In this document: one piece after another, positions 3,612 to 39,953 of the stretch | How positions within the stretch are numbered: the stretch's first letter is position 1 | Layout of the letters: every line of letters begins with the position of its first letter | Source: a virus | DNA length: 45,954 nucleotides | Strand: one strand, 5' to 3' | IMG/VR virus record: IMGVR_UViG_3300021962_000192 | Coordinates: 1-45,954 of that record | Notes under the pieces: generated by a model | The model's database searches: none | What the model saw: only the letters and a program-made list of their open reading frames with translations | Told to the model about the DNA's origin: nothing | Made by a program: the position numbers and the translations under genes

Positions 3612-4610
3612 ATGTCGGAATTTATTAAACGCGGAGCTGTTAGTCAGGCCGTAAGTGGCGGTCCACTTGCGCCGCGCCACAACAGAAATAATAAAACAGA
3701 CGGTGTATTTGCCTATTGGTTTGCGCAAGGCAAATCAATTCTTGCTGCGTTTATAGATGCATTTACTAGAAGTGATAGTGCAAGTTCTATTGGCGCAAAT
3801 GTTGTTGAATGGATTCCAGAACGTGGGACCTGGGGTATCAGTTCAAACGCCGCAACGACGAGCACTGCCGCTTCTTCATATCCCATCGCCACATTTAATG
3901 CGGGCACAGTAGCCGCAACGGTTAAGGCAACCCTTCCTGCAGTTAGGTCTGCTGGTGCTGGTGTTGCATTTTGGGTTACGGATGCAAATAACTGGTGGGC
4001 TGCAGTTGCTGACAAAGTAGATTTCTCGGGCGCACCATACAATTGCCCAAGTGGTGGTTCAATCACTAGTGGTAGTAATTGCCAATATACATATGGTGCC
4101 GTAGGTGGCGGACCATACACTGCGGGTGGTCCATTTGCTTATTGGGCTTGCGGTTCCGGAACAAATTTTGGCAACGGATGTTGGTATTACGATGGTTATA
4201 CTTGGGTGCGATTTGGAGACGGGTATATTGCTTATGGCTATCAGCCTCCCTATACACAACCCGCCCCTTATAACTACACCCCAACAACAGTAAACTACAC
4301 GGGTACTGCTACAAGCTTTAATCGTTCTGATTTTAAAATTATCAAAAGCACGGCAGGCACAGTTTCTACTGTTTCAAGCCACACGGTAGCCACCCCAACG
4401 GCAACTACATATTTGTCTTACATCCAAGCCCAAACTACGGCTAACGGGGTAACAATTACGGCCGCAGATAGCGCTGCACCAAATACCGTGACCACTGTTA
4501 ATGTCGCCGCTTCGACACCAGTTCCAGCAGAAAAATTTGGAATAGTGTATGCTCCGGCGACAAATTATGCGAACCCCAAGGTAGAACAAATTGAGTACAC
4601 CCCATTATGA
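3612..4610 (+). CDS. Tail/receptor-binding protein with jelly-roll lectin-like domain
   Basis: This is a 332-residue protein. Residues 48-140 read like a concanavalin/LamG-type jelly roll: FTRSDSASSIG, then WGISSNAA, then AGVAFWVTDANNWWA, the 'xF...D..N.W' pattern of carbohydrate-binding sandwich domains in phage appendages. A middle segment (about 140-220) is extremely rich in Tyr, Gly, Trp and Pro with four Cys, unlike the flanks. The C-terminal part is again beta-rich. The gene follows the preceding one by three bases. A role in host-surface recognition is inferred from domain type and position. Confidence 0.65.
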   Translation: MSEFIKRGAVSQAVSGGPLAPRHNRNNKTDGVFAYWFAQGKSILAAFIDAFTRSDSASSIGANVVEWIPERGTWGISSNAATTSTAASSYPIATFNAGTVAATVKATLPAVRSAGAGVAFWVTDANNWWAAVADKVDFSGAPYNCPSGGSITSGSNCQYTYGAVGGGPYTAGGPFAYWACGSGTNFGNGCWYYDGYTWVRFGDGYIAYGYQPPYTQPAPYNYTPTTVNYTGTATSFNRSDFKIIKSTAGTVSTVSSHTVATPTATTYLSYIQAQTTANGVTITAADSAAPNTVTTVNVAASTPVPAEKFGIVYAPATNYANPKVEQIEYTPL

Positions 4611-4770
4611 TTCCTATGCCGTTGAACGTTTGGCAATCTGCAAAGAGTGCCCGCGTTATTTTAAACTTACTTCAACCTGTAAAGAATGCGGTTGCTTTAT
4701 GATAGTTAAAGCACAACTATCTTCATCTAGTTGCCCCTTAGGAAAATGGAGCCCACATGGCACACAATAG
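4591..4770 (+). CDS. Small Cys-rich zinc-binding protein (copy 1)
   Basis: This short gene is easily missed. The frame opens after a stop at 4582-4584, and the only plausible start is TTG 4591 (AAGG about ten bases upstream); it ends at TAG 4768-4770. It gives 59 residues. The core is ICKECPRYF, TCKECGCFM, SSCPLGKW, that is CxxC-x9-CxxCGC plus a later Cys, a zinc-knuckle pattern. The protein encoded at 27819-28061 has the same spacing and the same ending (CPLSKW), so the two are paralogues. Each copy lies just upstream of a 2OG-oxygenase cluster. It overlaps the genes on both sides (20 and 14 bases). Function unknown. Confidence 0.65.
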   Translation: MSTPHYDSYAVERLAICKECPRYFKLTSTCKECGCFMIVKAQLSSSSCPLGKWSPHGTQ

Positions 4771-5026
4771 AACAGTTTCATTTAATACAAATTCAGAAGT
4801 CTTAGGTAAAAAGATTTCGTCTCTTTTGTTTTATGTTGATATTGCCAAAGAGAGAATTATCCAAGACAGTGAGTACCCAGCAACCAACGATATAGTCTGC
4901 TCGATTGATGAAGCCCGCCATTTGTTGCTTGCTTTAAATAATCTTTTCACCGTAGAGCCATCTGAGGTGACTCCGGCGGACAGTTCCTTTGATTTGTTGG
5001 AATTTAGCGATACGGTCCCCCAATAG
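4757..5026 (+). CDS. Hypothetical protein
   Basis: The 89-residue acidic protein has a GGAG site five bases before the ATG and overlaps the zinc-protein gene by 14 bases. It begins with a polar stretch, then has a helical middle (VCSIDEARHLLLALNNLF) and an acidic tail. No recognised domain. Its position in the operon between a tail protein and the oxygenases gives no firm clue to function. Confidence 0.6.
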   Translation: MAHNRTVSFNTNSEVLGKKISSLLFYVDIAKERIIQDSEYPATNDIVCSIDEARHLLLALNNLFTVEPSEVTPADSSFDLLEFSDTVPQ

Positions 5027-5054
5027 CTTTAAGAGATTAGCTAACCAATAGCCC

Positions 5055-5061
5055 TGATAGT
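5055..5061 (+). promoter_or_regulatory. -10 box for the first oxygenase operon
   Basis: TGATAGT at 5055-5061 contains a -10-like hexamer GATAGT, followed nine bases later by ATG 5071 with no Shine-Dalgarno sequence between. This resembles the other leaderless starts in the window. No -35 match is seen. Confidence 0.35.
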
Positions 5062-5070
5062 ATGGGCGCC

Positions 5071-5469
5071 ATGGAAGCAAAAATAATTCCAAGCGCAAAA
5101 GGACCAGTTGTCTTATTTGAAGACTTAGCCCTGCATATGACCGACACCCAAGGACTTACATACGCGGTAAATACTACACCTTTTCTTCTTCAAAACCTAG
5201 AAAAATCTTTGATTGACCATTTCGAATCAGTAACTAATTTTGTAAAAGAAAATTTAAAATCCAAAAATCCACTGCAATCAAATTTAGTTACTGACGCAAT
5301 AGGCGCAATGGATGATTTCTTTAAGTTTGCTTATAAGGACTATATTGGCTACCTAAGACTTCAAGCAATGGATAAAGAGCCGGATTTATCTGGCGAGAAG
5401 TTAGATGCCGCAGTTCGCAGAATTTGCCGAGACGACATCAATCATTTCTATGCGCAAAAAAAATCATGA
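5071..5469 (+). CDS. Hypothetical protein, first gene of oxygenase operon
   Basis: The predicted protein is mainly alpha-helical and has no recognised domain. Two in-frame starts exist: ATG 5062 and ATG 5071 (132 residues). I prefer 5071 because of the spacing from the -10 box at 5056-5061. The C-terminal region is charged (AAVRRICRDDINHFY). It overlaps the next gene through ATGA, which starts a run of four coupled genes. A role as partner or substrate of the downstream oxygenases is possible but unsupported. Confidence 0.6.
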   Translation: MEAKIIPSAKGPVVLFEDLALHMTDTQGLTYAVNTTPFLLQNLEKSLIDHFESVTNFVKENLKSKNPLQSNLVTDAIGAMDDFFKFAYKDYIGYLRLQAMDKEPDLSGEKLDAAVRRICRDDINHFYAQKKS

Positions 5470-6083
5470 GAAGAGAACCTTCCGACGTTAGATACGATAA
5501 GCCAGTAGACAATTGCGTACCACCGTCTGTAGTCGTCTCTGATGTTTTCACTCCAGATGAATGTCGTAAAATTATAGAACTTGGAAATTCCGAGAAACTA
5601 GACGCCGCAAAAGTTAGGGGTGGCGCTGTTATGACTCAAATCAGAAGTTCGGAGTTAAGGTTTATCGAGCCCGTAAATATGAATGAAGTCGGTTGGATTT
5701 TTGAAAGACTCAAAGAAATTATTGACAATGTAAATGACCGAATCTATGAGTATCAATTGCATTATTTTACCCCACCTCAATTTACTCATTACAAAGTTGA
5801 TGATTATTATGACTGGCATATGGACCTACTAATGGGTAAACCATGTGAGGCATTATTTATGAGGAAACTTTCAGCAACAGTATTTTTGTCAAATCCAGAA
5901 GATTTTACTGGAGGCGAATTAATGATAGGTCGTAATTCTGACGGCAGTCATGAAGAGATAATTGAAGCAAAGCAAGGAGCCATGGTTTTGTTTCCTTCAT
6001 TTATTTGGCATAAAGTCAATACGGTTAAATCAGGAGAGCGTTATTCGTTGGTTGTTTGGAGTGAAGGGGATAAATTCAGGTGA
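5466..6083 (+). CDS. Fe(II)/2-oxoglutarate oxygenase, prolyl 4-hydroxylase/PKHD type
   Basis: The start is ATG 5466, overlapping the preceding stop (ATGA). The 205-residue protein is a complete double-stranded beta-helix oxygenase. Iron ligands are His118-x-Asp120 (in YYDWHMD) and His182 (in SFIWHKV); Arg192 (in SGERYSLVVW) would bind 2-oxoglutarate. The conserved FTGGELMI and GAMVLFPS strands are typical of PKHD-type hydroxylases. Such enzymes hydroxylate prolyl, lysyl or other side chains using O2 and 2OG. The natural substrate is unknown; it is close to tail-fibre genes and in an operon with other oxygenase-like proteins. Confidence 0.9.
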   Translation: MRREPSDVRYDKPVDNCVPPSVVVSDVFTPDECRKIIELGNSEKLDAAKVRGGAVMTQIRSSELRFIEPVNMNEVGWIFERLKEIIDNVNDRIYEYQLHYFTPPQFTHYKVDDYYDWHMDLLMGKPCEALFMRKLSATVFLSNPEDFTGGELMIGRNSDGSHEEIIEAKQGAMVLFPSFIWHKVNTVKSGERYSLVVWSEGDKFR

Positions 6084-6865
6084 GCGAAGAACAAAGCGAA
6101 CAAGTAGTTTATTGGGCGCCATGGATAGACAAATCTACTGGTCAAAGAGAAAACAAATCAACGGTTAGCGAATGGCTGTACAAGGAACCATCCAGCGTGT
6201 GGCAGGAGTTGTTGGACAATAAAGACCAAAATATTATTTCCAGCAAATTAACCACTACATATTTACAGTGTCCAGCAACCAGAGAGGCACTTACTAATGT
6301 TTTTGTGGTTAGATGCCCATGTACTTCGACTGCAGAAGTATTAATAAAAGAAAATAGTCAAATTGAAAAAGTAGAGCAAGCCTGGGGCACTCAATCACAA
6401 TGCGAAATAAGTATGGCCCATGCGCCGACGTGCTACGACCAACTTCTCATTATTGTGGGTTACCCTTTTATCTTTTTTAGCGAAGAGTCGCTTTTTATGA
6501 GGTCAACATCACCCTGGTTCCATTCAGCACCACATTTTTCATTAGGAGGCATAGTTCCTGGCCTCTACGATATTGGTCGTTGGTTTAGGCCTTTAAATTT
6601 TGAATACAATCTCTGGCCCAGAAATAATAAATTTACAATTATGGAGGGCGAACCAATGGCTTATTTGGAATTTTCAACAAATAAACCAGTTGTTTTTAAA
6701 AGATTTGAACTTACACAAAAATTGATTGACCTCGCTTCTGATTCAATCCACACTAGGACAAAACAAACAAGAGGTTTAAATGGGTTGTGGAATAGATATA
6801 AGATGTTTGACGAATCTTACGGTAAAAAAATTATTGTAAAAGAAATCAAATCTAATTTAATATGA
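6080..6865 (+). CDS. Conserved hypothetical protein within oxygenase operon
   Basis: The GTG start at 6080 overlaps the previous stop (GTGA), and the stop overlaps the next start (ATGA), so translation is tightly coupled. The 261-residue protein is rich in aromatic residues and Pro (WAPWIDKSTG; SPWFHSAPHFSLGG; YNLWPRNNKF) and has scattered Cys (QCPATRE, RCPCTS, SQCEIS, PTCYDQ). I do not recognise a named fold. Fixed placement between two oxygenase-like genes suggests it acts with them, for instance as a scaffold or substrate-recognition partner. Confidence 0.7.
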   Translation: MSEEQSEQVVYWAPWIDKSTGQRENKSTVSEWLYKEPSSVWQELLDNKDQNIISSKLTTTYLQCPATREALTNVFVVRCPCTSTAEVLIKENSQIEKVEQAWGTQSQCEISMAHAPTCYDQLLIIVGYPFIFFSEESLFMRSTSPWFHSAPHFSLGGIVPGLYDIGRWFRPLNFEYNLWPRNNKFTIMEGEPMAYLEFSTNKPVVFKRFELTQKLIDLASDSIHTRTKQTRGLNGLWNRYKMFDESYGKKIIVKEIKSNLI

Positions 6866-7386
6866 TTTTTCTTGAACGTTCAGAATTTATTGTTAAAAAT
6901 CTTCCCGAGATTGAAAAATCTTTAGAATTTGCTCGCTTTAAATTCAAGGATGTAATGGGGACAACCGAATATACAAAAGCCTACGGTATTTATAATCTCT
7001 TTGCCTTACTTCATTCAGATGCTCTTTTTTATCAAATATTTATCGATTTGCGCGAGCGAGTTAGAACTGTTTTAAAACTGGAGCCGAATCAGCCTCTCTG
7101 GATGCAAGCGTGGATGAACGCTGACAGACCAGAAGGAGTCTTAGATTGGCATGACCATATGTGGCCATGGCACGGGTATATATCTATTGACCCCAAAAAT
7201 ACGAACACAGTTTTTGAAGACAGAGTAGTTAAAAATGTTCCGGGTCAAATTTATTTTGGTGAAGGTCATAATAGACATAAAGTTCAAGTCCTGGAACCGT
7301 ATGAAGGTTTAAGAACAACAATTGGATTTGATGTAACCAACGTAGTTGGCGAAAGGACAAGATATGTCAGTTTTATCCCGTTCTAA
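6862..7386 (+). CDS. Probable Fe(II)/2OG-dependent oxygenase (divergent)
   Basis: The 174-residue protein overlaps its neighbours on both sides. A likely metal site is LDWHDHMWPWHGYI: His97-Asp-His99 (HxH, or Asp98 as ligand), with His139 in HNRHKVQV and Arg151 in GLRTTIGFDV. The order 'first His pair, GQIYFG strand, second His, R-TIGFD strand' follows the oxygenase jelly roll. The acidic ligand of the classical HxD triad is not in its usual place, so catalysis is less certain than for its neighbours. Confidence 0.6.
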   Translation: MIFLERSEFIVKNLPEIEKSLEFARFKFKDVMGTTEYTKAYGIYNLFALLHSDALFYQIFIDLRERVRTVLKLEPNQPLWMQAWMNADRPEGVLDWHDHMWPWHGYISIDPKNTNTVFEDRVVKNVPGQIYFGEGHNRHKVQVLEPYEGLRTTIGFDVTNVVGERTRYVSFIPF

Positions 7387-7984
7387 TTCCAAGGAAGAGC
7401 AATATACGCAAGGCGACCACATCGGCGTATGGGATAATTTTTTTACCCCCGAGCTGTGCAATAAATTTATTGCATTTTATGAATATCGCTCCAAGGTTGC
7501 GTTCAAACGAAACGACCATACAAAGCAAGACTCATCGGTGAATATTGGCACAGAAGAAGCAATGCGACAAATTATGGTCGATAGTTCAATGAGCGATGAT
7601 TTTCTGCCAGAATTTCTAGATAAATTTTGGGGAACTTGTTACCCAATGTACGTTGAGAAACACCCACATTTAACAAATGCAGTTTCTTCGCTTGTTATGT
7701 CAACTATAAAGATTCAAAAAACACTTCCTCAAGAGGGTTATCATGTTTGGCATTGCGAGCAAGCAACGATAGAAACTGGGCGCCGGATGGCGTTTATTAT
7801 TCTTTACTTGAACGATGTTCAATCTGGCGGCGAGACAGAGTTCCTATACCAATCAGCAAGAGTTGAGGTTTCTCAAGGGCGGTTAATTCTCTCTCCGGCT
7901 GCTTATACCCATATGCACCGTGGTAATCCGCCATTAAGCGGGCCAAAATATATTCTCACAGCGTGGCTTGAATTTGAAAAATAG
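7364..7984 (+). CDS. Fe(II)/2OG oxygenase, prolyl 4-hydroxylase-like with HxE motif
   Basis: The start is ATG 7364 (AAAGGA eight bases upstream), overlapping the previous gene by 23 bases; a TTG at 7346 is the alternative. The 206-residue protein carries His130-Cys-Glu132 (YHVWHCE) instead of HxD, the strand SGGETEFL, and the distal His in TYTHMHRG-like sequence (YTHMHRGNPP, His183/His185). Lys195 in GPKYILTAW probably replaces Arg as the 2OG ligand, as it does in prolyl 4-hydroxylases. HxE variants are active in some subfamilies. It ends the ATGA-coupled operon. Confidence 0.85.
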   Translation: MSVLSRSNSKEEQYTQGDHIGVWDNFFTPELCNKFIAFYEYRSKVAFKRNDHTKQDSSVNIGTEEAMRQIMVDSSMSDDFLPEFLDKFWGTCYPMYVEKHPHLTNAVSSLVMSTIKIQKTLPQEGYHVWHCEQATIETGRRMAFIILYLNDVQSGGETEFLYQSARVEVSQGRLILSPAAYTHMHRGNPPLSGPKYILTAWLEFEK

Positions 7985-8083
7985 TTAAACTATAAATTTT
8001 AAAAACCAGCTATAGAAACTATGTGCCCAAGCACAAATAGTGTGTGGCTGGCATGCCTATTTTATTCTTGCGCAAAAAATTAT

Positions 8084-20300: not shown

Positions 20301-22372
20301 AATTTAAAGATGTATCATCAGCTGTTAGTGACGCAATAAAAGAATATGACGCTGCTACCGGAGCGATAAAAGCTTATTCAGAAGGTCAAGAAGCGCTCCT
20401 TGGTTTGAATAAGAGTGGCGTAGAAGCAGCTATTGATTATCGCGAATCATTAAGCAAGATATCTGATTCGACAGGCAAGGTTGGTAGTGGTCTTTTCTCA
20501 ATGACCGAAAATGCTGATGATGCCCAAAAAGCAATTATTGATTCAGTAGAAAGCTTGCTTGACGCCGCAAATATTAAGGCGGCTGCAGGAGATAAGGAAG
20601 GCGCAATCGCAATGATTGCTGCTGGCTCGGCAGATATTGTAAGCGCTGGTGTTGCAGCTGGAATTAGTTCAGCGGATATCTTTACGCTTTTTGAGCAGAT
20701 TGGGTTTGGTCGGGATATAGCAGAAGCTTTCTTCGATTCCGAGGAAGCAGCGGCTAATGGCGGCAAAGATGTAGGCGCAGCAATTAATAATGGTATGAAA
20801 ACTGGATTACTGGCATCACAAGGCGTGGTGAGCCAGGCCGTCAGTAGCCAAAGCAAGGCTTTACTCCAGCAATTAAAAGATTTTTGGATTATTAAATCAC
20901 CATCCAAAGTTGCGGAAAAAGAAATTGGTATACCTATTGGCGAAGGAATCCAATTCGGCTTAGTTCAATCAGGTAAAAATAATAAATTTGCAAACATTCT
21001 TGGTGGAAAATTAATTAAAAGCATTAATAATGCAATAGGTAAGGCTTCGGAAAAATCACGGGGCAGCATTTGGTCAGCTTTTACTACTTCGTTTATGAAG
21101 AAAAAGGGTGATGTCAAAACACCTATTCAAGATTACGTTAAAGCCGTAGTCAGTAGAATGAAAGAGGTAATTGGTTCTCTTGGTCAATACCTTAACGCCC
21201 AGCTAGATTTCAGCAAAGCTAAAACCGATTTAGCAAAATTGGCTAATACTCAAAGACTTTACGAAAGCAATTTAGCCAAAGCTAGAAGAGCTCAAGGAGC
21301 AAGCGAACTTAAGTTTGGCCTTGAAGGCGGTGCTCAAGTTACGGACTATGAGCAGGCACAAATTGATGAATTGCAAAAATCATTTGAGCAAGCCTCTCGA
21401 GATTATGCGCTTGGTAGAGCAACATTGGTCGACGTAGTAGATGCTGAGATTGCCTTACAGGAAGCTCGAGCGGCTGCCGCAGAAACTAACTCGGATGTAA
21501 TAGATTCACAAAATACAACCATAGATAGAACGAGAGAATTACAAGATAAAAATTTAGAATTTGCGGCTGCACAGGTTGCTGTTCTGGAATCATATGCCGA
21601 TGTTATAGAGGCGTCAATTGAGCTTTATTGGAATTCAAAAGAATTGCCTGGTGTTTTTAATCAACTTGCCGCGGCAGCTGGCGTCACAAACGGGACACTT
21701 CAAATTGGTGGAGAAAAAATTGCCGACATTGGCATCAAGTTTGATGGCCTACTTGAAAAAGTTGGGTTGAACTTAACTGACCCAGCAGGTGAATTTGCTA
21801 CGGCGCTTCAAGGTCTTGGTCCAACAATGTGGGATGCTATTAAAGCTTCGGTATCTGAAGCAATTGCAAAATCTCCATTAACACTTGGATTTGGCTCTGG
21901 CGGAAGCGGTGGCGGCAGTGGTAGTAAAGGCGGCACGCCGTCTAATTCTTGTACAACTTTTCCATGTCCGCCGGGTCAAGTAGGTAAATTGCAAAGTAAC
22001 GGTACTTGTGCTTGCGTTGAGGCACCAAAGTACTCGTATGTCTCTCCGTCTATGGCAGCCTCTTATATTAAAAGTAAATTACCACCGCTACCAGTGGTTA
22101 GAAAAGCTGTTGGTGGGCCAATTTTGTCTGGCAACCCATACATGATTGGAGAAAAAGGACCGGAAATGTTCCTGCCTAATGTTTCGGGAACTGTGGTTAC
22201 GGCTTCTGCTCTTGAGCGCTATACAAGGGTCAGAAGCTCGATGACATCAGGCGGACAACAAGGTGCTGGTAATAATATTGAAGTCAATGTCTACAATCCA
22301 ACCCCAGAACCAGCCGCTGACTCAATTACCCGTCGCATGAAAGTTCTTTCAAATAACGGATTGTTTGGTTAA
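17336..22372 (+). CDS. Tape measure protein
   Basis: At 1678 residues it is the longest protein here. Residues about 80-290 are the TP901-type tape measure core (KSVLSLAGETGRAPIELADA, YFVTSAGIKDARALQVLENA, SALSRTGLSAGT-type segments). A hydrophobic region lies near 590-620 (FSIAVKGVMAAFGVFTLIFS), followed by long helices. Near the C-terminus there is a Gly/Ser-rich linker, a small Cys-rich insert (SCTTFPCPPGQ...CACVE) and the classic GEKGPEMFLPNVSGTVV ending. It sets tail length and may help DNA entry. By the usual 1.5 Å per residue rule the tail would be about 250 nm. Confidence 0.93.
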   Translation: MSNASGSLPLNVRITINTTGARQATNSMRAVTGASMGMSRGLGQSVISMRTLGDATRQSASLLKYTFFGAALNVGKSALQMSRNFEVTFARIKGLVNIGAAQMEIFKKSVLSLAGETGRAPIELADALYFVTSAGIKDARALQVLENAARASAAGLGETKVVADAVTSTLNAYGEGAYSAAEVTDILVATVREGKAEADTFAPALGKVLPVAAAFGASFEDVSAAIAALSRTGLSAGTSAIYMRQVLSQLLKPSKQAEEALIGVGTSAEKIRQNVADKGLFPALQELNTQLSANTTSTAKVFGNVRALTAVLALLGPNAEANAEIFRKLNNAGGDLDYAFTAVQETLDMKFNKAFAASQAAMIKLGDSLKGVAVTLLNFQTAITSTLTALFGADNAFGGLARTTVKVVAGLAILGTVFTALLRTGSSIIRLYSNMTVAAAGFTRGVMLNGRFVSMASTQTGIFANVANSAGVTLSRLALQQNQVNLSSMSLGQAQRAVAAQYAQATTATQIQAVNTGILASQQQAGALTTRSVILAQIGLEKAQNNGNIGLFRKIGLTQLAKTADNTLAISSATATAQQNALTGATLRGAIAMGIFSIAVKGVMAAFGVFTLIFSVVSIFKTFRKSSDDASTGVKKLKDNLEDLNDVGNGTVAWIKDGLVVKVGIDTTSAADQKIQDALLEELGGEEGDFYKGLQKIVNENIAGEDIRAIYAKTIIDSQFGNQTPEEQEAVKNILANALKVDPKQIENATAESFTGVQGADTILTRAYIESFTSAQKKIEEYATDYGIQIPQIGVEAGEFDLGNTFDGISDALSRYASGSAGYGKAEEIGKTISRNLGEGFTGALQDSASVLPFTKGLENLLEDTSKLDPVKQSQFIQEFVSGTFEGLDGSLQVLKDKTGNLSEIFLNSENRSAAIELIVGSLKVSSGEAGLILDQLQKKLEKVPKGQKGAAEAAKITAEFFNKQVVATNKLNSATNITVSGLKETEDQFKDVSSAVSDAIKEYDAATGAIKAYSEGQEALLGLNKSGVEAAIDYRESLSKISDSTGKVGSGLFSMTENADDAQKAIIDSVESLLDAANIKAAAGDKEGAIAMIAAGSADIVSAGVAAGISSADIFTLFEQIGFGRDIAEAFFDSEEAAANGGKDVGAAINNGMKTGLLASQGVVSQAVSSQSKALLQQLKDFWIIKSPSKVAEKEIGIPIGEGIQFGLVQSGKNNKFANILGGKLIKSINNAIGKASEKSRGSIWSAFTTSFMKKKGDVKTPIQDYVKAVVSRMKEVIGSLGQYLNAQLDFSKAKTDLAKLANTQRLYESNLAKARRAQGASELKFGLEGGAQVTDYEQAQIDELQKSFEQASRDYALGRATLVDVVDAEIALQEARAAAAETNSDVIDSQNTTIDRTRELQDKNLEFAAAQVAVLESYADVIEASIELYWNSKELPGVFNQLAAAAGVTNGTLQIGGEKIADIGIKFDGLLEKVGLNLTDPAGEFATALQGLGPTMWDAIKASVSEAIAKSPLTLGFGSGGSGGGSGSKGGTPSNSCTTFPCPPGQVGKLQSNGTCACVEAPKYSYVSPSMAASYIKSKLPPLPVVRKAVGGPILSGNPYMIGEKGPEMFLPNVSGTVVTASALERYTRVRSSMTSGGQQGAGNNIEVNVYNPTPEPAADSITRRMKVLSNNGLFG

Positions 22373-22374
22373 TT

Positions 22375-23256
22375 ATGTCTACTGCATTTCCTAAAGTTCT
22401 TGAATATTACGTAGTTAATGATATTGAATTAGCAACACACGGCTACATGATTTCGAGCATCGAGCGTGGTATTCCCGGAAGAAAAGGTGAGAACTTCACC
22501 TCTGGTTCAATACACGGAGACCAATGGCGGGAAAAAAGATTAACTCCAAGAACTGAAACTTGGACTGTGTGGATTTGTGATGCGCACCCGACAACTGGTG
22601 TCGTTCCATCAACTGATGCTGGTAAAAGGGCCCAATTCAACGAAAACTACGACACGGTATTTAATTTGTTTGGAAGAATGCAAGAGCTTTTAACCATTGT
22701 TCATTACAGAGTAGACCCAACCAACCCAAGCGTTTATTCAACGAGGGTTGGATATGGAGAAGTAGTTTCTTCTATATCTGTCGGGGATAACTCACTACTG
22801 AATTATGTTGAGTTTTCTGTTGAGGTAAGTTTCCCCGACCCACGCTGGTTCTCCCCAACAACTGTAAGTCCAGGTTTAACAGCAACAAAATCTTCTGGTG
22901 ATGCAGTCCCAATTACGTGCCTTGCTGCAGATGTTGGAACGGCCCCAGTCACCTATATGACTATAACTATCACCTCTACTGGCACACTCGTGAACCCACG
23001 AATATCCAATACAACTTATCCTTCTTCGCCTTCGGTTATTGGATTTAACGGAACTCTTACTAGTGGCCAGAGTGTCATCATTAATACTGACGCATTGACA
23101 GTAACCAAAGCTTCAGTCAATTCGATATCTAGCCTGTATCGCACTGGCTCACGGCAATCATGGTTTGAGCTATTCCCAGAAGATAATGATTTGAGTTTTT
23201 TCTCGACCAGCGGGACCGGAACGGTTAGTATTACATATAGGAAAGCATATTTCTAA
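22375..23256 (+). CDS. Distal tail protein (Dit-like)
   Basis: The 293-residue protein starts two bases after the tape-measure stop and ends immediately before the next gene. N-terminal strands (YVVNDIELATHGYMISSIER, KRLTPRTETWTVWI) and a C-terminal galectin-like beta region (about 185-290) match siphovirus distal tail proteins that join the tube to the tip. Assignment is by position and layout. Confidence 0.75.
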   Translation: MSTAFPKVLEYYVVNDIELATHGYMISSIERGIPGRKGENFTSGSIHGDQWREKRLTPRTETWTVWICDAHPTTGVVPSTDAGKRAQFNENYDTVFNLFGRMQELLTIVHYRVDPTNPSVYSTRVGYGEVVSSISVGDNSLLNYVEFSVEVSFPDPRWFSPTTVSPGLTATKSSGDAVPITCLAADVGTAPVTYMTITITSTGTLVNPRISNTTYPSSPSVIGFNGTLTSGQSVIINTDALTVTKASVNSISSLYRTGSRQSWFELFPEDNDLSFFSTSGTGTVSITYRKAYF

Positions 23257-26200
23257 ATGGCTAAAACAACATGGGATGCATGGGTTGTTCTAGCTAACGA
23301 CCCCTTAAATGTAGTTTCCTATATTCCTCGTTGGAAAACAATTGAGTTCTCTGACCAATTAAATGATGTTGGTTCTGGCTCTCTGTCGCATGATTTATCT
23401 GACCCATTTTTTGAAGCATTTGAAACGCAGAATGGAAATAGTTTATTAACCGGCCCGTACGCAATCAAAATTGTGCGAGACGGACAACCAGTATTCACGT
23501 TTTTTATCGAAGATATTCAGGTTGACCGCTCCAGCATAACTCAGCCAATACAAATTAGTGGAAGAGGAATAGCTGCGGCTCTCGAATGGGGAATTGTCCT
23601 CCCGCAGGATTTTTCAAATCAAGCTCGTGCTGTTGCTGGTTCGACACAGAGACCAAAGTTTTTTGACAGATTATTCCCTGGATATTCATATAACGTTCGA
23701 TGCGCAACGACAGCCAATCTTGCTTCAACGTATGCAAATGGTGCTTCAGCCGACATTCCTGGTTCTGGGGCACGATTAACATCAACAAGTAATGGCTCGA
23801 TAAACAACAGCGGTATTGATGGAGTGACAGACCTGGTTGTCGGCGACACAATCCTTGTCAAGAACCAAAGCAATTTAGCGCACAATGGTGTTTACTGGGT
23901 GGTCTATCCTGGTTCACCGACGGCACCATGGGTTCTTCAAAGAACAGCTACTGCAGACGGCTCACCAATCAAAGATTTAGCTGTAGACAATGCTGCGTTC
24001 GTTTTAGAGGGAGTACAAAACGGTTATAAGTCTTTCAAAATAAGCAGCAATGACGGGCTAACGAACGCCAATCAAGTAGGAACAAAAAATATTACCTTTA
24101 CCCAACTATCTATTGGGTCATTTACTGGAATATCGGCGTTTTATGTTTTATTTACGGAGGCTGATAGCGGCTACGAACTAGACACAACAAGAGATAATTT
24201 TGCTCAAGTCCGTACAGAGTACGGTCGAGGTGGTATCGGTTTTGCTGTTGACTGGCCGTTATCTCTTGACTCAACATTGCAAAGCTCTTTTGGGCAGACT
24301 GACTCGAAAGGGAGAGTTGCCCAAGACGGTGGAAACTTCAATGTCGCAGTAGGACGAACACTGCTTGATGTTATTAACGAAGTTGCCAGCAACACTGGAG
24401 TCGATTGGCATGTGAGCCCAGACGGTCTGATTTCAATGTGCATCAGGCCGTTTACGAATCCAACAGTAACCCTATCGACGCCATTTGGAACGGATAGAAC
24501 ATCTGGCTCCGGAGCAATGCTCTTCACCCTACCGATGCTCTCTTCGGCTGAAACAATGACCTCCGTCTCTGAGTTGAGAACAGTTATGTACGGTTCGGAT
24601 GGTTTCAACTTAGACAAACAAATATCTGACAAAACAGGAATTTATGGTTTCCGAGAAGGATTTATTGAGAATACCTCCGACACAGCTCCGGCTGTCGCCA
24701 ACATAACTTCGGCGGCATTGCGAACCGTACGAGATGGCAAACTTCAAATTACGGCAACGTTCCAAGAGCGCGACGGAATGGTCGCTTGGAATAATTTTGG
24801 TCTTGGCGATAAGGTTCTTGTTGAAATTGAAGTTGGCACTTTTGATGAAAGAATTATTAGTGCACTATCTGCTTCTGTTTCTGAAAGCGGAGACGAATCG
24901 GTTGAGGTAACTTTCGGGGATGTTTTCAATGACATAGCAACCGACTTAAGCCGAGCTGCAAACTATGGTCAGGTAACCGCAGCGAATCTTCCAACATTTA
25001 CAGCGCGAGCAACATCTGCAAAGCCTGAAGGCCCGACCTCAACATCTGTCGGCACTGAAGTTCAAGGATTAAGTAATCGCGCAGTCGCAAACTGGGAGGG
25101 CAATGACGCAACCAGCGTTTCACAGTATGAAGCAATTATTTTTAGAGAAAAACAAGTACTCAGTGGTGGAAATTTTATTTCTATCGCTTATGACATTTCA
25201 AATGCTGTCCGAAGCGGGAATATAGGAGCAATAACAACAACCGTCCCCCATAATCTTTCCCCTGGTGATTTGATAAATATTTACGACACCCTTAATGGTG
25301 AATTTGATGGTCTTGTGGTTTTGGTGACCGGATTTATAGATACAACGACATTCACTATTGATTCGCCGGGTCCCGATTATTCAGTGCCTTCAGGTCATAC
25401 TGGCTACGTGACTTTGGTGGCTGAAAGTCATTCTCAATTTGTTGATAGTTCCAAGAAGAGTGTTGTAATCGAAAATCTTGCAGCGCCCGGTCGTGAATAT
25501 TCCTTCACGGTTGTCCCATATGCTCTTAACGGCGGAAGAGGTATACCTTCTGCCCCTGTTGCGTTTACTGCATCGAGCGACCCCCAGGTTCTATTTAACG
25601 GCGCAATTAGGTCAACAAATTATGTTTCCAATACGTCTGGCTGGACTATTGAGGCTGACGGTAATGCGGAGTTCAATGATGTAATTATCCGTAATGGCGC
25701 TTTTGTTCAAGGAACCTTTACTTCTCCATTAATTAGAACAGCAAATACTTTCCCTAGAGTCGAACTTAGTAGTTCTGGAATTATTGCGTACAACAACCTT
25801 GGGGATGCAAAAACAACAATTAGTAGCAGTACCGGAACAATCACTTCAGTCAATGGTAGTTTTAGTGGAGCGATTACCGCTTCCACCATAAGCGGAACCA
25901 CAATTAGTGGTGGCTCAATTTCTATTGGTTCAAACTTTTCAGTTACCAATTCTGGCGTCCTTACTGCGAGCGGCGCCACAATCACTGGCGACATCACAGC
26001 TAATGCTTTGACCGCAAATGTTACAATCACCACCCCAAATATTAGTGGTGGTCAAATTTATGGAACAGAATTAAATATTAATGACGCTTTTATTGTTGAC
26101 GAAAATGGCGCTTTATTGGCTACCGATGCGGCAGTAACCGGAGAGATTGTTGCAACAACGGGGTATATAGGTGGATGGCAAATTGATGGTTCTGGAAGAT

Positions 26201-26895
26201 TGATTTCAAGTGCGGCTAATCCGGCCGACAGAATGATATTTTCGCCATCAGAGAATAGTGGTAAGGGCGCTATTTCCGCAGCTGGAATTTCTATCGGTAA
26301 CGGAGATATTGTCGCAGAACAAATCGAATTAACTAATAAATTGGCTGTATTTTTTACTGGAGCAAGTACTTATTCTGGTCAACCCAATTATGGATTTTCT
26401 TTCTTTTACAACCCAACGCAAGACAAACTTTATGCAATTATTGGGGACAGTATTATTTATTGCATAGAAAAATGTGGAACAACACCACCCGTGACTCCTC
26501 CTGTGACTCCACCTGTGACCCCACCCGTAACACCTCCAGTAACTCCTCCAGTAACGCCGGTGACTCCACCAGTGGTCCCACCAGACGTTCCTGGCGAATA
26601 TAGGTACTGCAGCGAGCTTCAAGTTTCGCTTGGTGAAAACGGTTGCGTAACAACCGGGCAGTGCATTGAGCCTGGCTGGGGTGCAATTTGCACGGCCCCT
26701 GTAACGCCACCGGTGACCCCTCCGGTTACGCCGCCGGTGACTCCTCCTGTGACTCCTCCTGTAACGCCACCGGTAACGCCTCCTGTAACGCCTCCTGTAA
26801 CGCCTCCAGTTACTCCACCGTGCCCTGATTGCGGCGACATTGGGCCGTGTTGTGGAACTTGCGTTGGCGTAAAGGGTGTTTACTCGTGTCAATAG
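23257..26895 (+). CDS. Large tail tip/fibre protein with fibronectin-like region and TPPV repeats
   Basis: In this 1212-residue protein, the N-terminal part (about 1-570) resembles tail-tip (Tal/gp27-like) hub proteins, with strands such as YAIKIVRDGQPVFTFFIEDI. A fibronectin III-like segment lies near 740-780, followed by Thr/Ser/Ile-rich fibre-shaft repeats (TASTISGTTISGGSISIGSN). The C-terminus carries two blocks of TPPV repeats (26484-26580 and 26697-26820) separated and capped by Cys-rich segments (GENGCVTTGQCIEPGWG; CPDCGDIGPCCGTC). The repeats use varied synonymous codons, so the peptide rather than the DNA is being kept. Proline- and threonine-rich repeats are natural targets for prolyl hydroxylation and O-glycosylation, and such enzymes are encoded just downstream. 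Confidence 0.82.
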   Translation: MAKTTWDAWVVLANDPLNVVSYIPRWKTIEFSDQLNDVGSGSLSHDLSDPFFEAFETQNGNSLLTGPYAIKIVRDGQPVFTFFIEDIQVDRSSITQPIQISGRGIAAALEWGIVLPQDFSNQARAVAGSTQRPKFFDRLFPGYSYNVRCATTANLASTYANGASADIPGSGARLTSTSNGSINNSGIDGVTDLVVGDTILVKNQSNLAHNGVYWVVYPGSPTAPWVLQRTATADGSPIKDLAVDNAAFVLEGVQNGYKSFKISSNDGLTNANQVGTKNITFTQLSIGSFTGISAFYVLFTEADSGYELDTTRDNFAQVRTEYGRGGIGFAVDWPLSLDSTLQSSFGQTDSKGRVAQDGGNFNVAVGRTLLDVINEVASNTGVDWHVSPDGLISMCIRPFTNPTVTLSTPFGTDRTSGSGAMLFTLPMLSSAETMTSVSELRTVMYGSDGFNLDKQISDKTGIYGFREGFIENTSDTAPAVANITSAALRTVRDGKLQITATFQERDGMVAWNNFGLGDKVLVEIEVGTFDERIISALSASVSESGDESVEVTFGDVFNDIATDLSRAANYGQVTAANLPTFTARATSAKPEGPTSTSVGTEVQGLSNRAVANWEGNDATSVSQYEAIIFREKQVLSGGNFISIAYDISNAVRSGNIGAITTTVPHNLSPGDLINIYDTLNGEFDGLVVLVTGFIDTTTFTIDSPGPDYSVPSGHTGYVTLVAESHSQFVDSSKKSVVIENLAAPGREYSFTVVPYALNGGRGIPSAPVAFTASSDPQVLFNGAIRSTNYVSNTSGWTIEADGNAEFNDVIIRNGAFVQGTFTSPLIRTANTFPRVELSSSGIIAYNNLGDAKTTISSSTGTITSVNGSFSGAITASTISGTTISGGSISIGSNFSVTNSGVLTASGATITGDITANALTANVTITTPNISGGQIYGTELNINDAFIVDENGALLATDAAVTGEIVATTGYIGGWQIDGSGRLISSAANPADRMIFSPSENSGKGAISAAGISIGNGDIVAEQIELTNKLAVFFTGASTYSGQPNYGFSFFYNPTQDKLYAIIGDSIIYCIEKCGTTPPVTPPVTPPVTPPVTPPVTPPVTPVTPPVVPPDVPGEYRYCSELQVSLGENGCVTTGQCIEPGWGAICTAPVTPPVTPPVTPPVTPPVTPPVTPPVTPPVTPPVTPPVTPPCPDCGDIGPCCGTCVGVKGVYSCQ
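26484..26580 (+). repeat. TPPV-coding repeats, block 1
   Basis: About seven 12-base units encoding Thr-Pro-Pro-Val, with synonymous variation at third positions. A second, longer block follows at 26697-26820 after a Cys-containing spacer. Confidence 0.85.
26697..26820 (+). repeat. TPPV-coding repeats, block 2
   Basis: About ten 12-base units encoding Thr-Pro-Pro-Val, ending in PPCPDCGD. Copy number may vary between relatives through recombination between units. Confidence 0.85.
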
Positions 26896-26902
26896 AGTTA
26901 TG

Positions 26903-26939
26903 CCAGGTCAACCTGGATGAATGGTTATTCAATTATAAT
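26903..26939 (+). promoter_or_regulatory. Promoter with palindrome in place of -35 box (modification module)
   Basis: TATAAT (26934-26939) lies about 44 bases before ATG 26983. Exactly 17 bases upstream of it ends a perfect palindrome, CCAGGT-CA-ACCTGG (26903-26916), which occupies the -35 position. This suggests a regulator-dependent promoter for the GNAT/glycosyltransferase/oxygenase operon. Confidence 0.45.
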
Positions 26940-26982
26940 TGGATAAACCCAGAATCGCCTAAAGAAAAAAGGAGTGATTGCG

Positions 26983-27456
26983 ATGACAGTGAATGAAGCA
27001 TGGTCAGACATAGTCTCATCTGTAGGTGAAGAATTAGTCACAACACTGTGGGACGACATGGTTAATTTGTTTGGTGAAATTGATATTAACAATAAAGGTT
27101 ATTCGCAACAAATTAAAGAAGTTAGGTCTTCTAAGTGGGGTAATTCACAAACGACTAAATCGGTTAGGTATACACTGTTTAGGGACGAGAGTGGGTATTT
27201 AATCTGTCTACATGCGGGCTACTTAGATGAATCGGGAGTACAGCGCCCGTGGTTTATTGTCACTCACCCAAACCATCAACGTCAAGGACACGCAACAAGA
27301 TTGGCAGATTTTATTATAGGCCAAAGAGAAGAAGAGATTGGTGAAAGTTTTCCATACAAAGGCGCTTGGACCAACATTGAAATGACCCCGGCAAGCTCGG
27401 GATTTGCAAACAAATATGCAAAATCAAAGTTAGCAAGTGGTGACACCAATGTTTAG
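26983..27456 (+). CDS. GNAT-family N-acetyltransferase
   Basis: The start is ATG 26983, with AAAGGAG eight bases upstream. The 157-residue protein has the GNAT signature WFIVTHPNHQRQGHATRLAD, where QRQGHA is the acetyl-CoA pyrophosphate loop ([R/Q]xxGx[G/A]), preceded by a beta strand (LICLHAGYLDESGVQRPW). GNAT enzymes acetylate amines on proteins, sugars or small molecules. First gene of an operon that also encodes a glycosyltransferase and an oxygenase, so acetylation of a sugar or of a virion protein is possible. Confidence 0.72.
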   Translation: MTVNEAWSDIVSSVGEELVTTLWDDMVNLFGEIDINNKGYSQQIKEVRSSKWGNSQTTKSVRYTLFRDESGYLICLHAGYLDESGVQRPWFIVTHPNHQRQGHATRLADFIIGQREEEIGESFPYKGAWTNIEMTPASSGFANKYAKSKLASGDTNV

Positions 27457-27835
27457 CGAAGCTGATATTACATTTAGCCCGGAGAGAGATGGATATCCGG
27501 GCATCGCAATTGCTTTTGTTATTGACGAGGAAGTTGTTTACACAAAATCTTTTAAACCCTCATTCGCTAATGACTTTCTTTTATCTTCCCCTTCTTTCAG
27601 CTCCGGCGAAACAGAAAATATTGTTAATATTATTGCCAATGGTAATTCAGTTAAAATTGCCGTCAATGACATGATGGCAGCAATTTTATTAAGCGAGCCG
27701 TTGATAGTTCAGCTAACACTAGAAAATGGAAAGTATGTACACACGGGCTGGAAATACGGCAATAATAAATTTTATACAAAACAAGTTATTAATGGTCAAT
27801 TAGTGAATTATTACGGAGATGGAACAAGTGACTGA
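27449..27835 (+). CDS. Hypothetical protein
   Basis: About 128 residues from ATG 27449 (GTG 27437 and 27440 are alternatives); it overlaps the GNAT gene by eight bases and the zinc-protein gene by 17. The sequence is beta-rich (YPGIAIAFVIDEEVVYTKSF; PLIVQLTLENGKYVHTGWKY) and looks like a small beta-barrel. No motif recognised. Confidence 0.6.
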   Translation: MFSEADITFSPERDGYPGIAIAFVIDEEVVYTKSFKPSFANDFLLSSPSFSSGETENIVNIIANGNSVKIAVNDMMAAILLSEPLIVQLTLENGKYVHTGWKYGNNKFYTKQVINGQLVNYYGDGTSD

Positions 27836-28061
27836 GAAAACACCCTGGCAAAAATATAAAGAGAAAAACGGCGTAACTTTTTTTGATTTATTAAATCCCG
27901 CATCTCAAAAATCAGATTCAATACTCTCGAAAGCAAGGCTTGAAATTTGTGAATCTTGCGATAAGTATATAGATTCAGTAAAACAATGTAAGGAATGTGG
28001 CTGCATTATGCCACTCAAGGTTCGCCTTGCCAATGCTAAGTGCCCGCTATCTAAATGGTGA
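27819..28061 (+). CDS. Small Cys-rich zinc-binding protein (copy 2)
   Basis: The 80-residue protein (ATG 27819; GTG 27828 is also possible) has the Cys pattern ICESCDKYI, QCKECGCIM, AKCPLSKW, paralogous to the protein encoded at 4591-4770 but with an extra 20-30 residue N-terminus. As with the first copy, it lies directly upstream of oxygenase genes. Probably a one-zinc knuckle; partner unknown. Confidence 0.72.
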   Translation: MEQVTEKTPWQKYKEKNGVTFFDLLNPASQKSDSILSKARLEICESCDKYIDSVKQCKECGCIMPLKVRLANAKCPLSKW

Positions 28062-28064
28062 GGG

Positions 28065-28964
28065 ATGATTTTAAAAAACGGAACGTACGATAAACATACG
28101 ATAATCTACGATACCGATGGCCCAATATCGGTATTTACTAATGTAAAAATTAAAAACAATCCTCACAGCAACGACTTTTTCCCTCTTTGCGGGACCTTTG
28201 TACCAATAACCTGCACACCGCACTATTTTCATTTTTTGAAAGAGTATTACGGATTTTATATTTATTTTAAAAATAAATATGATGCGGATGCGAAGTATCT
28301 TAAAATAGAAAATAGTAGCTATTTTTACCCTGCGTATCAAAATATGGCTCGCGTATGTGGATACTGTTATGACCAGATTTCTGATGGGTTTACATTTAAT
28401 GATTTTTCTAACGCTAATTTAGAAATAGAAAAACTTATTATTTTATTCGATTCTCAAAAATGCATTACTGGTTCTTTGTACAGTCAACCTGACTACTTAA
28501 AAACACCTGGAATAAATACGGCGCTGAGAAATAGCGTTCTTTCAAAAATAAAAAAAACTACGCATAGCAAAAAATTATACCTATCGCGCAAAATAGTTTC
28601 AGAGCATTTACCTAATTTTCCTGTTGATGGCTCTAACGAGCGCCTTCAAAACTGGAAAAACGAACAAATGCGCTTGCGATACGTAGAGCCCACGTTAGAA
28701 GACGGAGTAGAGCAAAAATATTATGATGAAGGTTATGAAATTGTCCAGTTATCCGGTATGGATATTTTAGAACAGGCATCTATGTTTTATAATGCTGAAA
28801 AAATTGTCGGTCCAATCGGTACAGCTTTTTATAATGGTATATTTTCAAGCGAGCAAACTGTTTTTGATGCTTTAATGCTTAATCCAAATTATTTTTATGC
28901 TTTTGACGTAGACATAAAAACAGTTCTTCCCAACGCAGTATTTAGGTACAAATATGATTATTAA
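28065..28964 (+). CDS. GT61-like glycosyltransferase (DUF563 type)
   Basis: This is a 299-residue protein. The N-terminal part has HYFHFLKEYYGFYIYFK, comparable to the 'HWxxDxLPRL' region of GT61 enzymes. The central part has KLYLSRK, and the C-terminal part has YEIVQLSGMDILEQASMFYN followed by KIVGPIGTAFYNGIF, the conserved 'xS..eQv.lf..A..ivG..GagL.n' block of the family. GT61 members transfer pentoses or GlcNAc to glycans or proteins. It overlaps the following oxygenase gene by 11 bases, so the two are likely to act together. The sequence is more AT-rich than the tail genes. Confidence 0.72.
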   Translation: MILKNGTYDKHTIIYDTDGPISVFTNVKIKNNPHSNDFFPLCGTFVPITCTPHYFHFLKEYYGFYIYFKNKYDADAKYLKIENSSYFYPAYQNMARVCGYCYDQISDGFTFNDFSNANLEIEKLIILFDSQKCITGSLYSQPDYLKTPGINTALRNSVLSKIKKTTHSKKLYLSRKIVSEHLPNFPVDGSNERLQNWKNEQMRLRYVEPTLEDGVEQKYYDEGYEIVQLSGMDILEQASMFYNAEKIVGPIGTAFYNGIFSSEQTVFDALMLNPNYFYAFDVDIKTVLPNAVFRYKYDY

Positions 28965-30276
28965 AGAAGAGGCTTACCCATTACCTGATTTAGGTGTTGA
29001 GCCGCATCTGGTAAAAAATTTTTTCCCCGAAGATTTATTTTTGAAAGTAAAAAAACAAATTCAAGATACTGGCATGGGCACCGAAAAGGGAACATACTAT
29101 CCAATGATGGGTAGATGGGGTTCTGGAATCACCCCAAGTAAAGACGTGGAAGACTACGTTCTAAACGCAGTAAGAAAAATTTTTAATAATGACACCCTTG
29201 TCCCCGCTTATCACTACACAGTAATGTATCAAAGGAAAGATGGATGTATCCCCAATCTCTGGGAGCATTTAGACCAAAATGGTTCTCAAATATCAATAAA
29301 TATAGCCATAGAAAATACGGCAAATTGGCCGTTAATAGTTGACGGTCAAGAATTTTACCAAAACCCAAATGACGCTGTTATTTTTTGCGGACAACAGCAC
29401 TCACATGCAAGACCTCCATACCCAACAAACGATGAAAATTTGTGCACAACTCAACTATTCATGCATTTCAGCACCCCAAATCATTGGATTCAAAATCAAG
29501 CTTTCGGGACCATTCACGATTATGGGCTAGATGGTGATATAAGGTTTTTTAACAAAAATAGATACTTGCCCCTCCCGGACCCTCCGTTTAACCAACCAAT
29601 AGGAAAAGACCAAGACTATTCCGGGGTTTTGCATTATTACGACTTGATTGTCGGTGATTTTTTTGACACCGAATCAGAGTTGAGTGAATTAAATATTTTC
29701 TCTGTTCAAAAACTAGCTCCAGGTATTTTGCTTTATAAAACATCCAAAAAGTCAGCCCGCATTATAAAAGGTTTAGTTCAAAATGCGATATTTAAACAAT
29801 GGCGTCAAGCAGAAGTTGTTTTTAGCAACAATCAAACAGGAGTTGATTATAGTGCCCGGAACTGTTTCAACTATTTTTTGAACGAAAAGCAAGATGATTG
29901 CCATCCGCAAGACCCAATCGTTAGGGCAAAAAAATCTTTAGAATTAGGGATAAATGCAGTTGTTGAAAATTACAGAAAATTACATCATCTAACTCCTTTA
30001 AATTCTGACTCAACGGTACTTTTGAGATATGAGGAAGGCGGGATGTTTCATAATCATTTTGATGTAGCCCCGTCATTCCCTCGCGTTGTTTCTGTATCTA
30101 TGTTCTTGAACGAAGACTTTACTGGTGGCGAATTAGAATTCAAAGAATTCGGTCTTAAGGTAAAACCGGAATCAGGCGATATTTTGGTTTTCCCGTCATC
30201 TTTTCCTTACATGCATGAAGTACGCCCAGTAACTATGGGAATCAGATATTCAGTGGTTAAATGGTATAGTTTTTGA
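28954..30276 (+). CDS. Two-domain Fe(II)/2OG oxygenase, prolyl 4-hydroxylase-like
   Basis: The 440-residue protein carries two oxygenase folds. The C-terminal one is complete: His368-x-Asp370 (HNHFD), FTGGELEF, GDILVFPSS, His421 (YMHEVRP) and Arg431 (MGIRYSVVKW), typical of prolyl 4-hydroxylases. The N-terminal one has His105-x-Asp107 (LWEHLDQ) and a distal His149/His151 (QQHSHARPPY) but no clear Arg, so it may be a divergent catalytic or substrate-binding copy. It overlaps the glycosyltransferase gene. Hydroxylation followed by glycosylation of the nearby TPPV tail protein is a reasonable hypothesis. Confidence 0.85.
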   Translation: MIIKEEAYPLPDLGVEPHLVKNFFPEDLFLKVKKQIQDTGMGTEKGTYYPMMGRWGSGITPSKDVEDYVLNAVRKIFNNDTLVPAYHYTVMYQRKDGCIPNLWEHLDQNGSQISINIAIENTANWPLIVDGQEFYQNPNDAVIFCGQQHSHARPPYPTNDENLCTTQLFMHFSTPNHWIQNQAFGTIHDYGLDGDIRFFNKNRYLPLPDPPFNQPIGKDQDYSGVLHYYDLIVGDFFDTESELSELNIFSVQKLAPGILLYKTSKKSARIIKGLVQNAIFKQWRQAEVVFSNNQTGVDYSARNCFNYFLNEKQDDCHPQDPIVRAKKSLELGINAVVENYRKLHHLTPLNSDSTVLLRYEEGGMFHNHFDVAPSFPRVVSVSMFLNEDFTGGELEFKEFGLKVKPESGDILVFPSSFPYMHEVRPVTMGIRYSVVKWYSF

Positions 30277-38965: not shown

Positions 38966-39166
38966 ATGGGCAAGAAAAAAGGAAAAGGCGGCTCCAAGTC
39001 GAGTACAGGCAGGACCCGAACAAATCCTTTGACTGGCCAAATCGAAACAATTTCCGGAACTAAAGCAGGCAAGAAAAGACACCGCACTTCAATGGGCGAC
39101 CCTCTACGAACTCACGACCTTCATGGTCCTGTCGGAAAACCAAAAAAGAAAAAAGAAGAGTTTTAA
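38966..39166 (+). CDS. Small basic protein
   Basis: The 66-residue, strongly basic protein starts MGKKKGKGGSKSSTGRTRTN and ends GKPKKKKEEF. Probably disordered and nucleic-acid binding. It converges with, and overlaps by four bases, the minus-strand oxygenase gene. Confidence 0.55.
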   Translation: MGKKKGKGGSKSSTGRTRTNPLTGQIETISGTKAGKKRHRTSMGDPLRTHDLHGPVGKPKKKKEEF

Positions 39167-39939: not shown

Positions 39940-39953
39940 AGGTATTTGACATT

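Follow-up and report, generated by a model that had tools for sequence, protein, structure and literature searches.

A candidate cassette for hydroxylating and glycosylating a repeat-bearing tail protein in an actinobacterial-type phage

What are a prolyl-hydroxylase-like oxygenase and a glycosyltransferase doing downstream of a phage tail gene whose product ends in proline-rich repeats? The question is raised by a linear IMG/VR virus record (IMGVR_UViG_3300021962_000192), whose full 45,954 nucleotides constitute the window analyzed here. An earlier note had proposed that this phage modifies its own tail protein. The presence of a WhiB gene at 38447-38956 (PF02467, E 1.6e-10) marks the phage as actinobacterial-type, and no close relatives at the DNA level were found among GenBank phages. 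The features of the region are as follows.

17336-22372, + strand: tape measure (PF10145, phage tape-measure family, E 1.3e-26)
22375-23256, + strand: Dit-like tail protein (PF22768 SPP1_Dit, E 2.6e-8; phrog_5577, minor tail protein)
23257-26895, + strand: tail-tip-like protein of 1212 aa, the proposed substrate (phrog_110, minor tail protein, E 1e-5)
26481-26555, + strand: first TPPV array (TRF)
26701-26816, + strand: second TPPV array, then the terminal cap CPDCGDIGPCCGTCVGVKGVYSCQ (TRF, translation)
26974-27456, + strand: GNAT-like protein, an optional module member (Pfam Acetyltransf_7, E 0.006, below cut-off)
27437-27835, + strand: 132-aa protein, a conserved module family (84 ORFs adjoining DUF6171)
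27819-28061, + strand: DUF6171 zinc-ribbon-like protein, the module marker (PF19668)
28065-28964, + strand: GT61 glycosyltransferase (PF04577, E 2.8e-10)
28954-30276, + strand: two-domain 2OG-Fe(II) oxygenase, prolyl-hydroxylase-like, 440 aa (PF13640 in the C-half, phrog_2954 in the N-half)

The tail protein and the genes behind it

The genes run from tape measure to Dit-like protein to the 1212-aa protein, whose tail-tip-like assignment follows from this position; the Dit-like gene directly upstream places the proposed substrate at the tail tip. All genes named in the earlier note lie where it put them, on the + strand, and both translation and TRF bear out its description of a protein ending in two Thr-Pro-Pro-Val blocks with Cys-rich caps. 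The protein contains 14 Cys and, in its C-terminal part, 16 TPPV units, with the arrays separated and closed by Cys-rich segments. The 16 units are encoded by 14 different 12-base sequences in which codon positions 1 and 2 are fixed and the third is scrambled. Variation limited to the third position indicates that constraint acts on the peptide repeat and that the array did not arise recently by DNA slippage.

A 78-base gap separates the tail-protein gene from the operon, for which the note had listed a GNAT acetyltransferase, a zinc protein, a GT61-like enzyme and a 2OG oxygenase. The genes are there and the last three assignments stand, but the GNAT match is weak (17.3 bits against a Pfam curated cut-off of 27) and the gene for the 132-aa protein had been overlooked. 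The GNAT-like family is present in few of the modules surveyed below, and its other members (at L002, L016, L036, L138, L200 and L202) occur where GT61 was undetected, in some cases with short downstream sequence. With a match below cut-off and such relatives, the suggestion that the GNAT-like protein acetylates the added sugar is unsupported and was dropped.

The 132-aa protein and the DUF6171 protein are the constant companions of these modules and may act as adaptors or assembly factors. The DUF6171 protein passes the PF19668 cut-off (30.6 bits against 27), and its CxxC...CxxCGC pattern is kept across 16 aligned copies. Bacterial genomes yielded only 7 DUF6171 relatives of the module type, all in MAG contigs and two of them actinobacterial, which indicates that the module is essentially phage-borne. 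The window's 132-aa protein matched nothing in Pfam or PHROG, and its AlphaFold2 model (pLDDT 94) gave no significant fold match in the PDB; the sole lead toward a phage-fibre relative, 7ypx_a at E 1.4, was too weak to keep.

The glycosyltransferase clears the curated cut-off of PF04577 (41 bits against 27), a family matched by 15 of 15 of its relatives. Residues H56, R175 and R205 are invariant in 15 sequences and the Asn position is variable; by eye, the invariant His and two Arg could correspond to the catalytic His and part of the N-R-R constellation of EOGT. The Asn is reportedly missing from proteobacterial GT61 as well. No GT61 homologues were found among GenBank phages, and comparison of GT61, and of the GT60 enzymes introduced below, with PDB sequences gave nothing useful.

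As the note had stated, the oxygenase gene overlaps the GT61 gene; the overlap measures 11 bases. Its C-half belongs to PF13640 (E 9.4e-16) and its N-half to the phage 2OG family phrog_2954 (E 1.1e-14). All 16 fused oxygenases compared keep both iron triads, H105/D107/H151 and H368/D370/H421. The basic 2OG-binding residue of the C-domain is R431 (Lys in 2 of 16), while the N-domain has a Thr near the corresponding place and no obvious arginine there. The AlphaFold2 model is of moderate quality (pLDDT 77), and its TM-scores to hydroxylases span one domain. Its top Foldseek match in the PDB is the algal prolyl 4-hydroxylase with (Ser-Pro)5 (3gze, E 5.3e-11), followed by 2jig, Tpa1, the P. putida P4H, Dictyostelium PhyA (6t8m) and PBCV-1 vCPH (5c5t), with PHD2 and LH3 also among the matches. 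By sequence, the best PDB matches are PiuC and prolyl hydroxylases.

The reading that best accounts for this region, to which we assign a probability of about 0.7, is a self-contained tail-modification cassette in which the repeats would be hydroxylated by the 2OG oxygenase and then glycosylated by GT61, giving a decorated stalk.

Repeats and enzymes across phages

The survey of relatives that the note had called for was anchored on the repeat. Viral contigs were scanned with a DNA pattern for TPPVTPPVTPPV, which represents three TPPV units alone and makes no use of the enzymes, and at least 120 loci were obtained; duplicates and loci with less than 1.5 kb downstream were left out. A protein counted as Cys-capped if the 110 residues following its last TPPV include 4 or more Cys. 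Among the matches listed, 26 proteins are Cys-capped and 41 are uncapped, the latter serving as an internal control because they carry the same repeat. DUF6171 and 2OG genes lie within 5 kb downstream on the same strand at 26/26 capped and 0/41 uncapped loci (Fisher p 3.7e-19, here as in the comparisons below for repeat and cap classes set after viewing the data and loci that are not independent within one lineage). Together with the enzyme switch inside one backbone described below, this split strongly supports the proposal that enzymes and repetitive tail substrate travel together. The note had stated that enzymes commonly found away from any Pro/Thr-rich virion protein would speak against it; wherever upstream sequence is available, the fused 2OG-GT61 cassette was never found without a Pro-rich protein, and only distant 2OG relatives (L128-L137) cluster where no repeat protein occurs.

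GT61 is present at 8 of the 26 capped TPPV loci among the matches listed and missing from the other 18. Addition of a sugar to the repeats, as the note had proposed, is thus plausible here but not obligatory: judged from gene content, tail-repeat glycosylation is likely in the window phage and optional elsewhere. L001, a phage whose upstream genes are unrelated to those of the window, has a GT61 copy 92% identical to the window's; its genes run FN3-TPPV-Cys protein, DUF6171, GT61 and two-domain 2OG. At L002, APVI and PPFF repeats with Cys caps precede GNAT, DUF6171 and a 2OG of the same type, and there is no GT61. This locus prompted the rule that GT61 needs Thr in the repeat, which was ruled out by L156, where GT61 adjoins a VVPP array with almost no Thr. 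Instead of Thr, GT61 could therefore use hydroxyproline or the cap as its acceptor.

A second scan was anchored on DUF6171, and its best 80 of about 600 loci gave 58 modules with enough flank. In this set the tail protein upstream of DUF6171 is usually Cys-capped and carries TPPV, VVPP, PTPT, PTPVA, SPAAPVA, FFPP or poly-Thr repeats. Among the 58 modules, again from the best 80 of about 600 loci, 2OG genes accompany 35/38 Pro-rich substrates and 6/20 others (p 1.7e-6), the latter six following tail proteins without a clear Pro repeat, while GT61 is limited to PPV repeats (7/22 versus 0/36, p 5.7e-4). L010, a Pro-rich module scored as lacking 2OG, has an N-type 2OG by direct comparison. Within the same best 80 of about 600 loci, DUF6065 tracks FFP repeats (p 3e-4), GT60 tracks poly-Thr (p 8e-5) and an epimerase tracks PTPT/APV (p 3e-5). 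FFP-type modules in this set have C-type 2OG genes only, whereas PPV, PTPT and APV modules mostly have N-type genes too, a difference suggesting that the N- and C-type domains may serve different residues. An apparent second module of this kind lies near the start of the window.

3612..8010, + strand: apparent second module (DUF6171, 32 bits; PF13640, E 1.9e-14 and 2e-8)
3612-4610, + strand: its tail-like protein
4591-4770, + strand: its DUF6171 protein (32 bits)
5424-6083 and 7346-7984, + strand: its 2OG genes (PF13640, E 1.9e-14 and 2e-8, respectively)
6862-7386, + strand: a possible oxygenase without a Pfam match

The enzymes might instead act on the Cys-rich caps, hydroxylating Asp, Asn or Pro in a small disulfide domain and O-glycosylating it in the manner of EOGT. 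Every enzyme-bearing TPPV protein among the matches listed has caps, GT61 includes EOGT, which acts on Ser/Thr of Cys-rich EGF domains (PMC13123520), and GT61 is found with the almost Thr-free VVPP array. The enzyme set, however, follows the repeat motif: L016 and L138 have nearly the window's cap together with TPPV repeats, yet no GT61 lies within 8 kb, and among the best 80 of about 600 DUF6171 loci, non-repetitive Cys-rich tail proteins upstream of DUF6171 are often without these enzymes. Modification of the caps is therefore unlikely, and modification of the repeats remains the preferred reading.

Scans anchored on the glycosyltransferases point the same way. PF11397 was matched by 12/12 of the GT60 proteins tested. 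At 46 GT60-anchored loci with upstream sequence, among the matches listed, a poly-Thr tail-like protein is present in 35/46, DUF6171 in 41/46 and a nearby 2OG in 11/46; GT60 occurs together with 2OG in the sister modules L126, L163 and L190. An alignment of 15 GT61 sequences was too diverse for the contig scan, so a subfamily was used. Among the matches listed, PPV repeats are present at every GT61-anchored locus where a repeat protein was found (6/12); the remaining 6/12 are without one, in most cases because the contig begins only a short way upstream.

When 70 modules were clustered on the upstream proteins they share, they fell into 26 backbone groups. Within the largest group (20 loci), 2OG accompanies 7/7 Pro-rich and 0/11 poly-Thr tail proteins (p 3e-5) and the poly-Thr loci have GT60, a comparison whose GT60 half is biased, most poly-Thr loci having been fetched via GT60, and whose 2OG absence is unbiased. 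The 30 Pro-rich modules span 12 backbone groups, placing the cassette in phages with unrelated upstream genes.

These comparisons bear on two further explanations. The repeats could be inert spacers linked to the enzymes by descent or by hitch-hiking of one co-inherited cassette, whose copies have clearly moved between phages, as the L001 GT61 attests. Such co-inheritance is very improbable given several repeat types with several enzyme sets in at least 12 backbone groups, the joint switch of repeat and enzymes within one backbone, and the conservation of the repeats despite their scrambled third positions. Alternatively, the enzymes could modify a polysaccharide on the host surface or some small molecule, and their genes would then lie beside the tail genes only as co-residents of a hypervariable locus for host interaction. 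In cyanophages, gene clusters that combine glycosyltransferases and 2OG oxygenases with cupins and a halogenase have been read as modifying capsular polysaccharide or secondary metabolites (PMC7824862), and glycosyltransferases adjoining pelagimyophage tail fibres as acting on host LPS (PMC7029224). Genes whose target is independent of the tail, however, should neither split capped from uncapped TPPV proteins, as they do completely among the matches listed, nor switch with the repeat inside one backbone, and the nearest folds of the oxygenase are protein hydroxylases, all of which makes a target outside the tail improbable.

Beyond the window, the balance tips modestly toward a modular decoration system shared by aquatic tailed phages. 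A Cys-capped stalk of one repeat type would be inherited with repeat-matched enzymes, namely prolyl hydroxylases for Pro, GT61 for some PPV, multiple 2OG plus DUF6065 for FFP and GT60 for poly-Thr. The DUF6171 and 132-aa pair would couple substrate to enzymes, and the chemistry of the stalk would be swappable as a unit.

A model for tail modification

The fold of the oxygenase, its intact iron ligands and its co-variation with the repeat make the proposed hydroxylation of the Pro repeats a well-supported prediction; from sequence and model, the window phage probably hydroxylates prolines of its own tail repeats. Around this prediction we infer which modifications occur and in what order, which residues accept them, which sugar is added, what the adaptors do and how the phage benefits. 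The end of the tail-tip protein would consist of rigid TPPV stalks, rich in proline, with small disulfide-type caps closing them. In the infected cell, at assembly, the two-domain oxygenase would hydroxylate prolines of the repeat, and each of its domains may serve a different proline per unit. GT61 would next add a sugar, most likely to the hydroxylated repeat on hydroxyproline or Thr, while DUF6171 and the 132-aa protein, as probable adaptors or assembly factors, would join enzyme with substrate. The resulting stalk would be stiff, resistant to proteases and decorated, and would present a variable Cys-rich tip to the host.

Known systems and significance

One parallel in chemistry is found in plant extensins and AGPs, whose Pro-rich repeats are hydroxylated by P4H and then glycosylated, and the top fold match of the phage oxygenase is an algal enzyme of this kind. 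Plant hydroxyproline-rich glycoproteins are cell-wall and not virion proteins, and the known plant hydroxyproline glycosyltransferases belong to other families. Eukaryotic viruses are known to encode prolyl hydroxylases, and mimivirus hydroxylates and glycosylates its own collagen by means of L230, a collagen hydroxylase/glucosyltransferase. L230 and PBCV-1 vCPH resemble the window enzyme as viral hydroxylases, with vCPH (5c5t) and human LH3 among its fold matches, but they belong to eukaryotic viruses and concern collagen Gly-X-Y substrates rather than tail proteins. The mimivirus and PBCV-1 hydroxylases are not known to be accompanied by repeat-matched enzyme sets.

The Skp1 pathway of Dictyostelium and Toxoplasma (PhyA, then the GT60 enzyme Gnt1) shares with the window a 2OG prolyl hydroxylase of the same fold (6t8m), there followed by a sugar on hydroxyproline, and shares GT60 with the sister modules. 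Its substrate is a single proline of a cytosolic cellular protein, unlike the repetitive tail protein proposed here. A GT60 search of the window gave no match; the window has GT61 instead, so it lacks the Skp1-type pairing of P4H with GT60. For GT60 enzymes, GlcNAc transfer has been described both to hydroxyproline of Skp1 (PMC6939170) and to Thr of T. cruzi mucins (PMC9472816), and their presence in sister modules therefore fits known chemistry. TcOGNT, which acts on Thr-rich mucins, parallels phage GT60 beside poly-Thr tail proteins; it is a eukaryotic Golgi enzyme, however, and the parallel covers the sister modules rather than the window. Among phages, Che8, Corndog and Myrna are described as modifying capsid and tail tube with their own glycosyltransferases (Freeman et al. 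2023, as summarized in PMC12363180). These mycobacteriophages resemble the proposal in directing phage-encoded enzymes at their own virions and differ from it in that the summary reports neither an oxygenase step nor a Pro/Thr repeat stalk.

A search of the open-access literature found no description of a repetitive tail substrate coupled with enzyme sets that match its repeat. That the enzyme set changes with the repeat across phages suggests a virus-borne version of the chemistry used on mucins and on proteins of the plant cell wall. Near the tail genes of phages from aquatic metagenomes, 2OG oxygenases and glycosyltransferases are common, and guesses at their targets have named host polysaccharide or nucleic acid. 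The survey offers those enzymes a specific, testable protein target, and the repeat type predicts which modification to expect. If the model is true, the compact pairs of enzyme and substrate would allow hydroxylated or glycosylated Pro/Thr repeats to be made in bacteria. The adhesion organ of a phage would then bear hydroxyproline-like or mucin-like decoration, a chemistry associated with plants and animals, with a bearing on host adsorption, tail stability and evasion.

Exchange of caps and repeats

The terminal cap CPxCGDIGPCCGxC.GVK is nearly the same in the window (26817-26892) and in L202 (5950-6258), another of the compared loci. The stalk beneath it is built of TPPV repeats in the window and of FSPP-type repeats in L202; therefore, caps and repeats recombine.

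An apparent second module and a halogenase

Window 3612-8010 appears to be a second DUF6171 module, with the following features:

within 3612-8010: tail-like protein containing Cys and Pro/Thr stretches
4591-4770: DUF6171
5424-6083 and 7346-7984: two PF13640 oxygenases
6862-7386: possible oxygenase, without a Pfam match

Its oxygenases are immediately followed by a 1112-aa protein (8021-11359) with long poly-Thr stretches and an apparent N-terminal signal or TM segment. GT60, a glycosyltransferase of some sister modules, is absent from the window.

Three further enzymes are encoded on the minus strand:

151-1650, minus: flavin-dependent tryptophan halogenase (PF04820, E 7.5e-90)
within 39163-40562, minus: TauD-like dioxygenase (PF02668)
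within 39163-40562, minus: PF13640 2OG oxygenase

The TauD-like and PF13640 pair is distant from the tail genes, and the halogenase gene adjoins the tail region. Halogenases are also present in cyanophages, in clusters that contain 2OG and cupin genes (PMC7824862), so the window halogenase might, by analogy, be part of the same modification arsenal.

Enzymes in other loci and cultured relatives

Several modules in other loci contain radical SAM-SPASM enzymes adjoining 2OG and GT61/GT60 genes, hinting at additional peptide chemistry on the tail proteins:

L090 5078-5947: radical SAM-SPASM
L040 354-1211: radical SAM-SPASM
L141 3005-4006: radical SAM-SPASM

In loci L130-L133, small 2OG oxygenase genes are arrayed in tandem, four to eight per run, with no DUF6171 or repeat proteins nearby.

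DUF6171-like matches occur in 132 GenBank phage records. In the cultured cyanophage Synechococcus phage syn9 (L225), the match (record 20321-20488) adjoins the gene for gp29, and genes annotated as structural fibre proteins lie downstream of it. These phages, syn9 included, are a source of cultured material for mass spectrometry.
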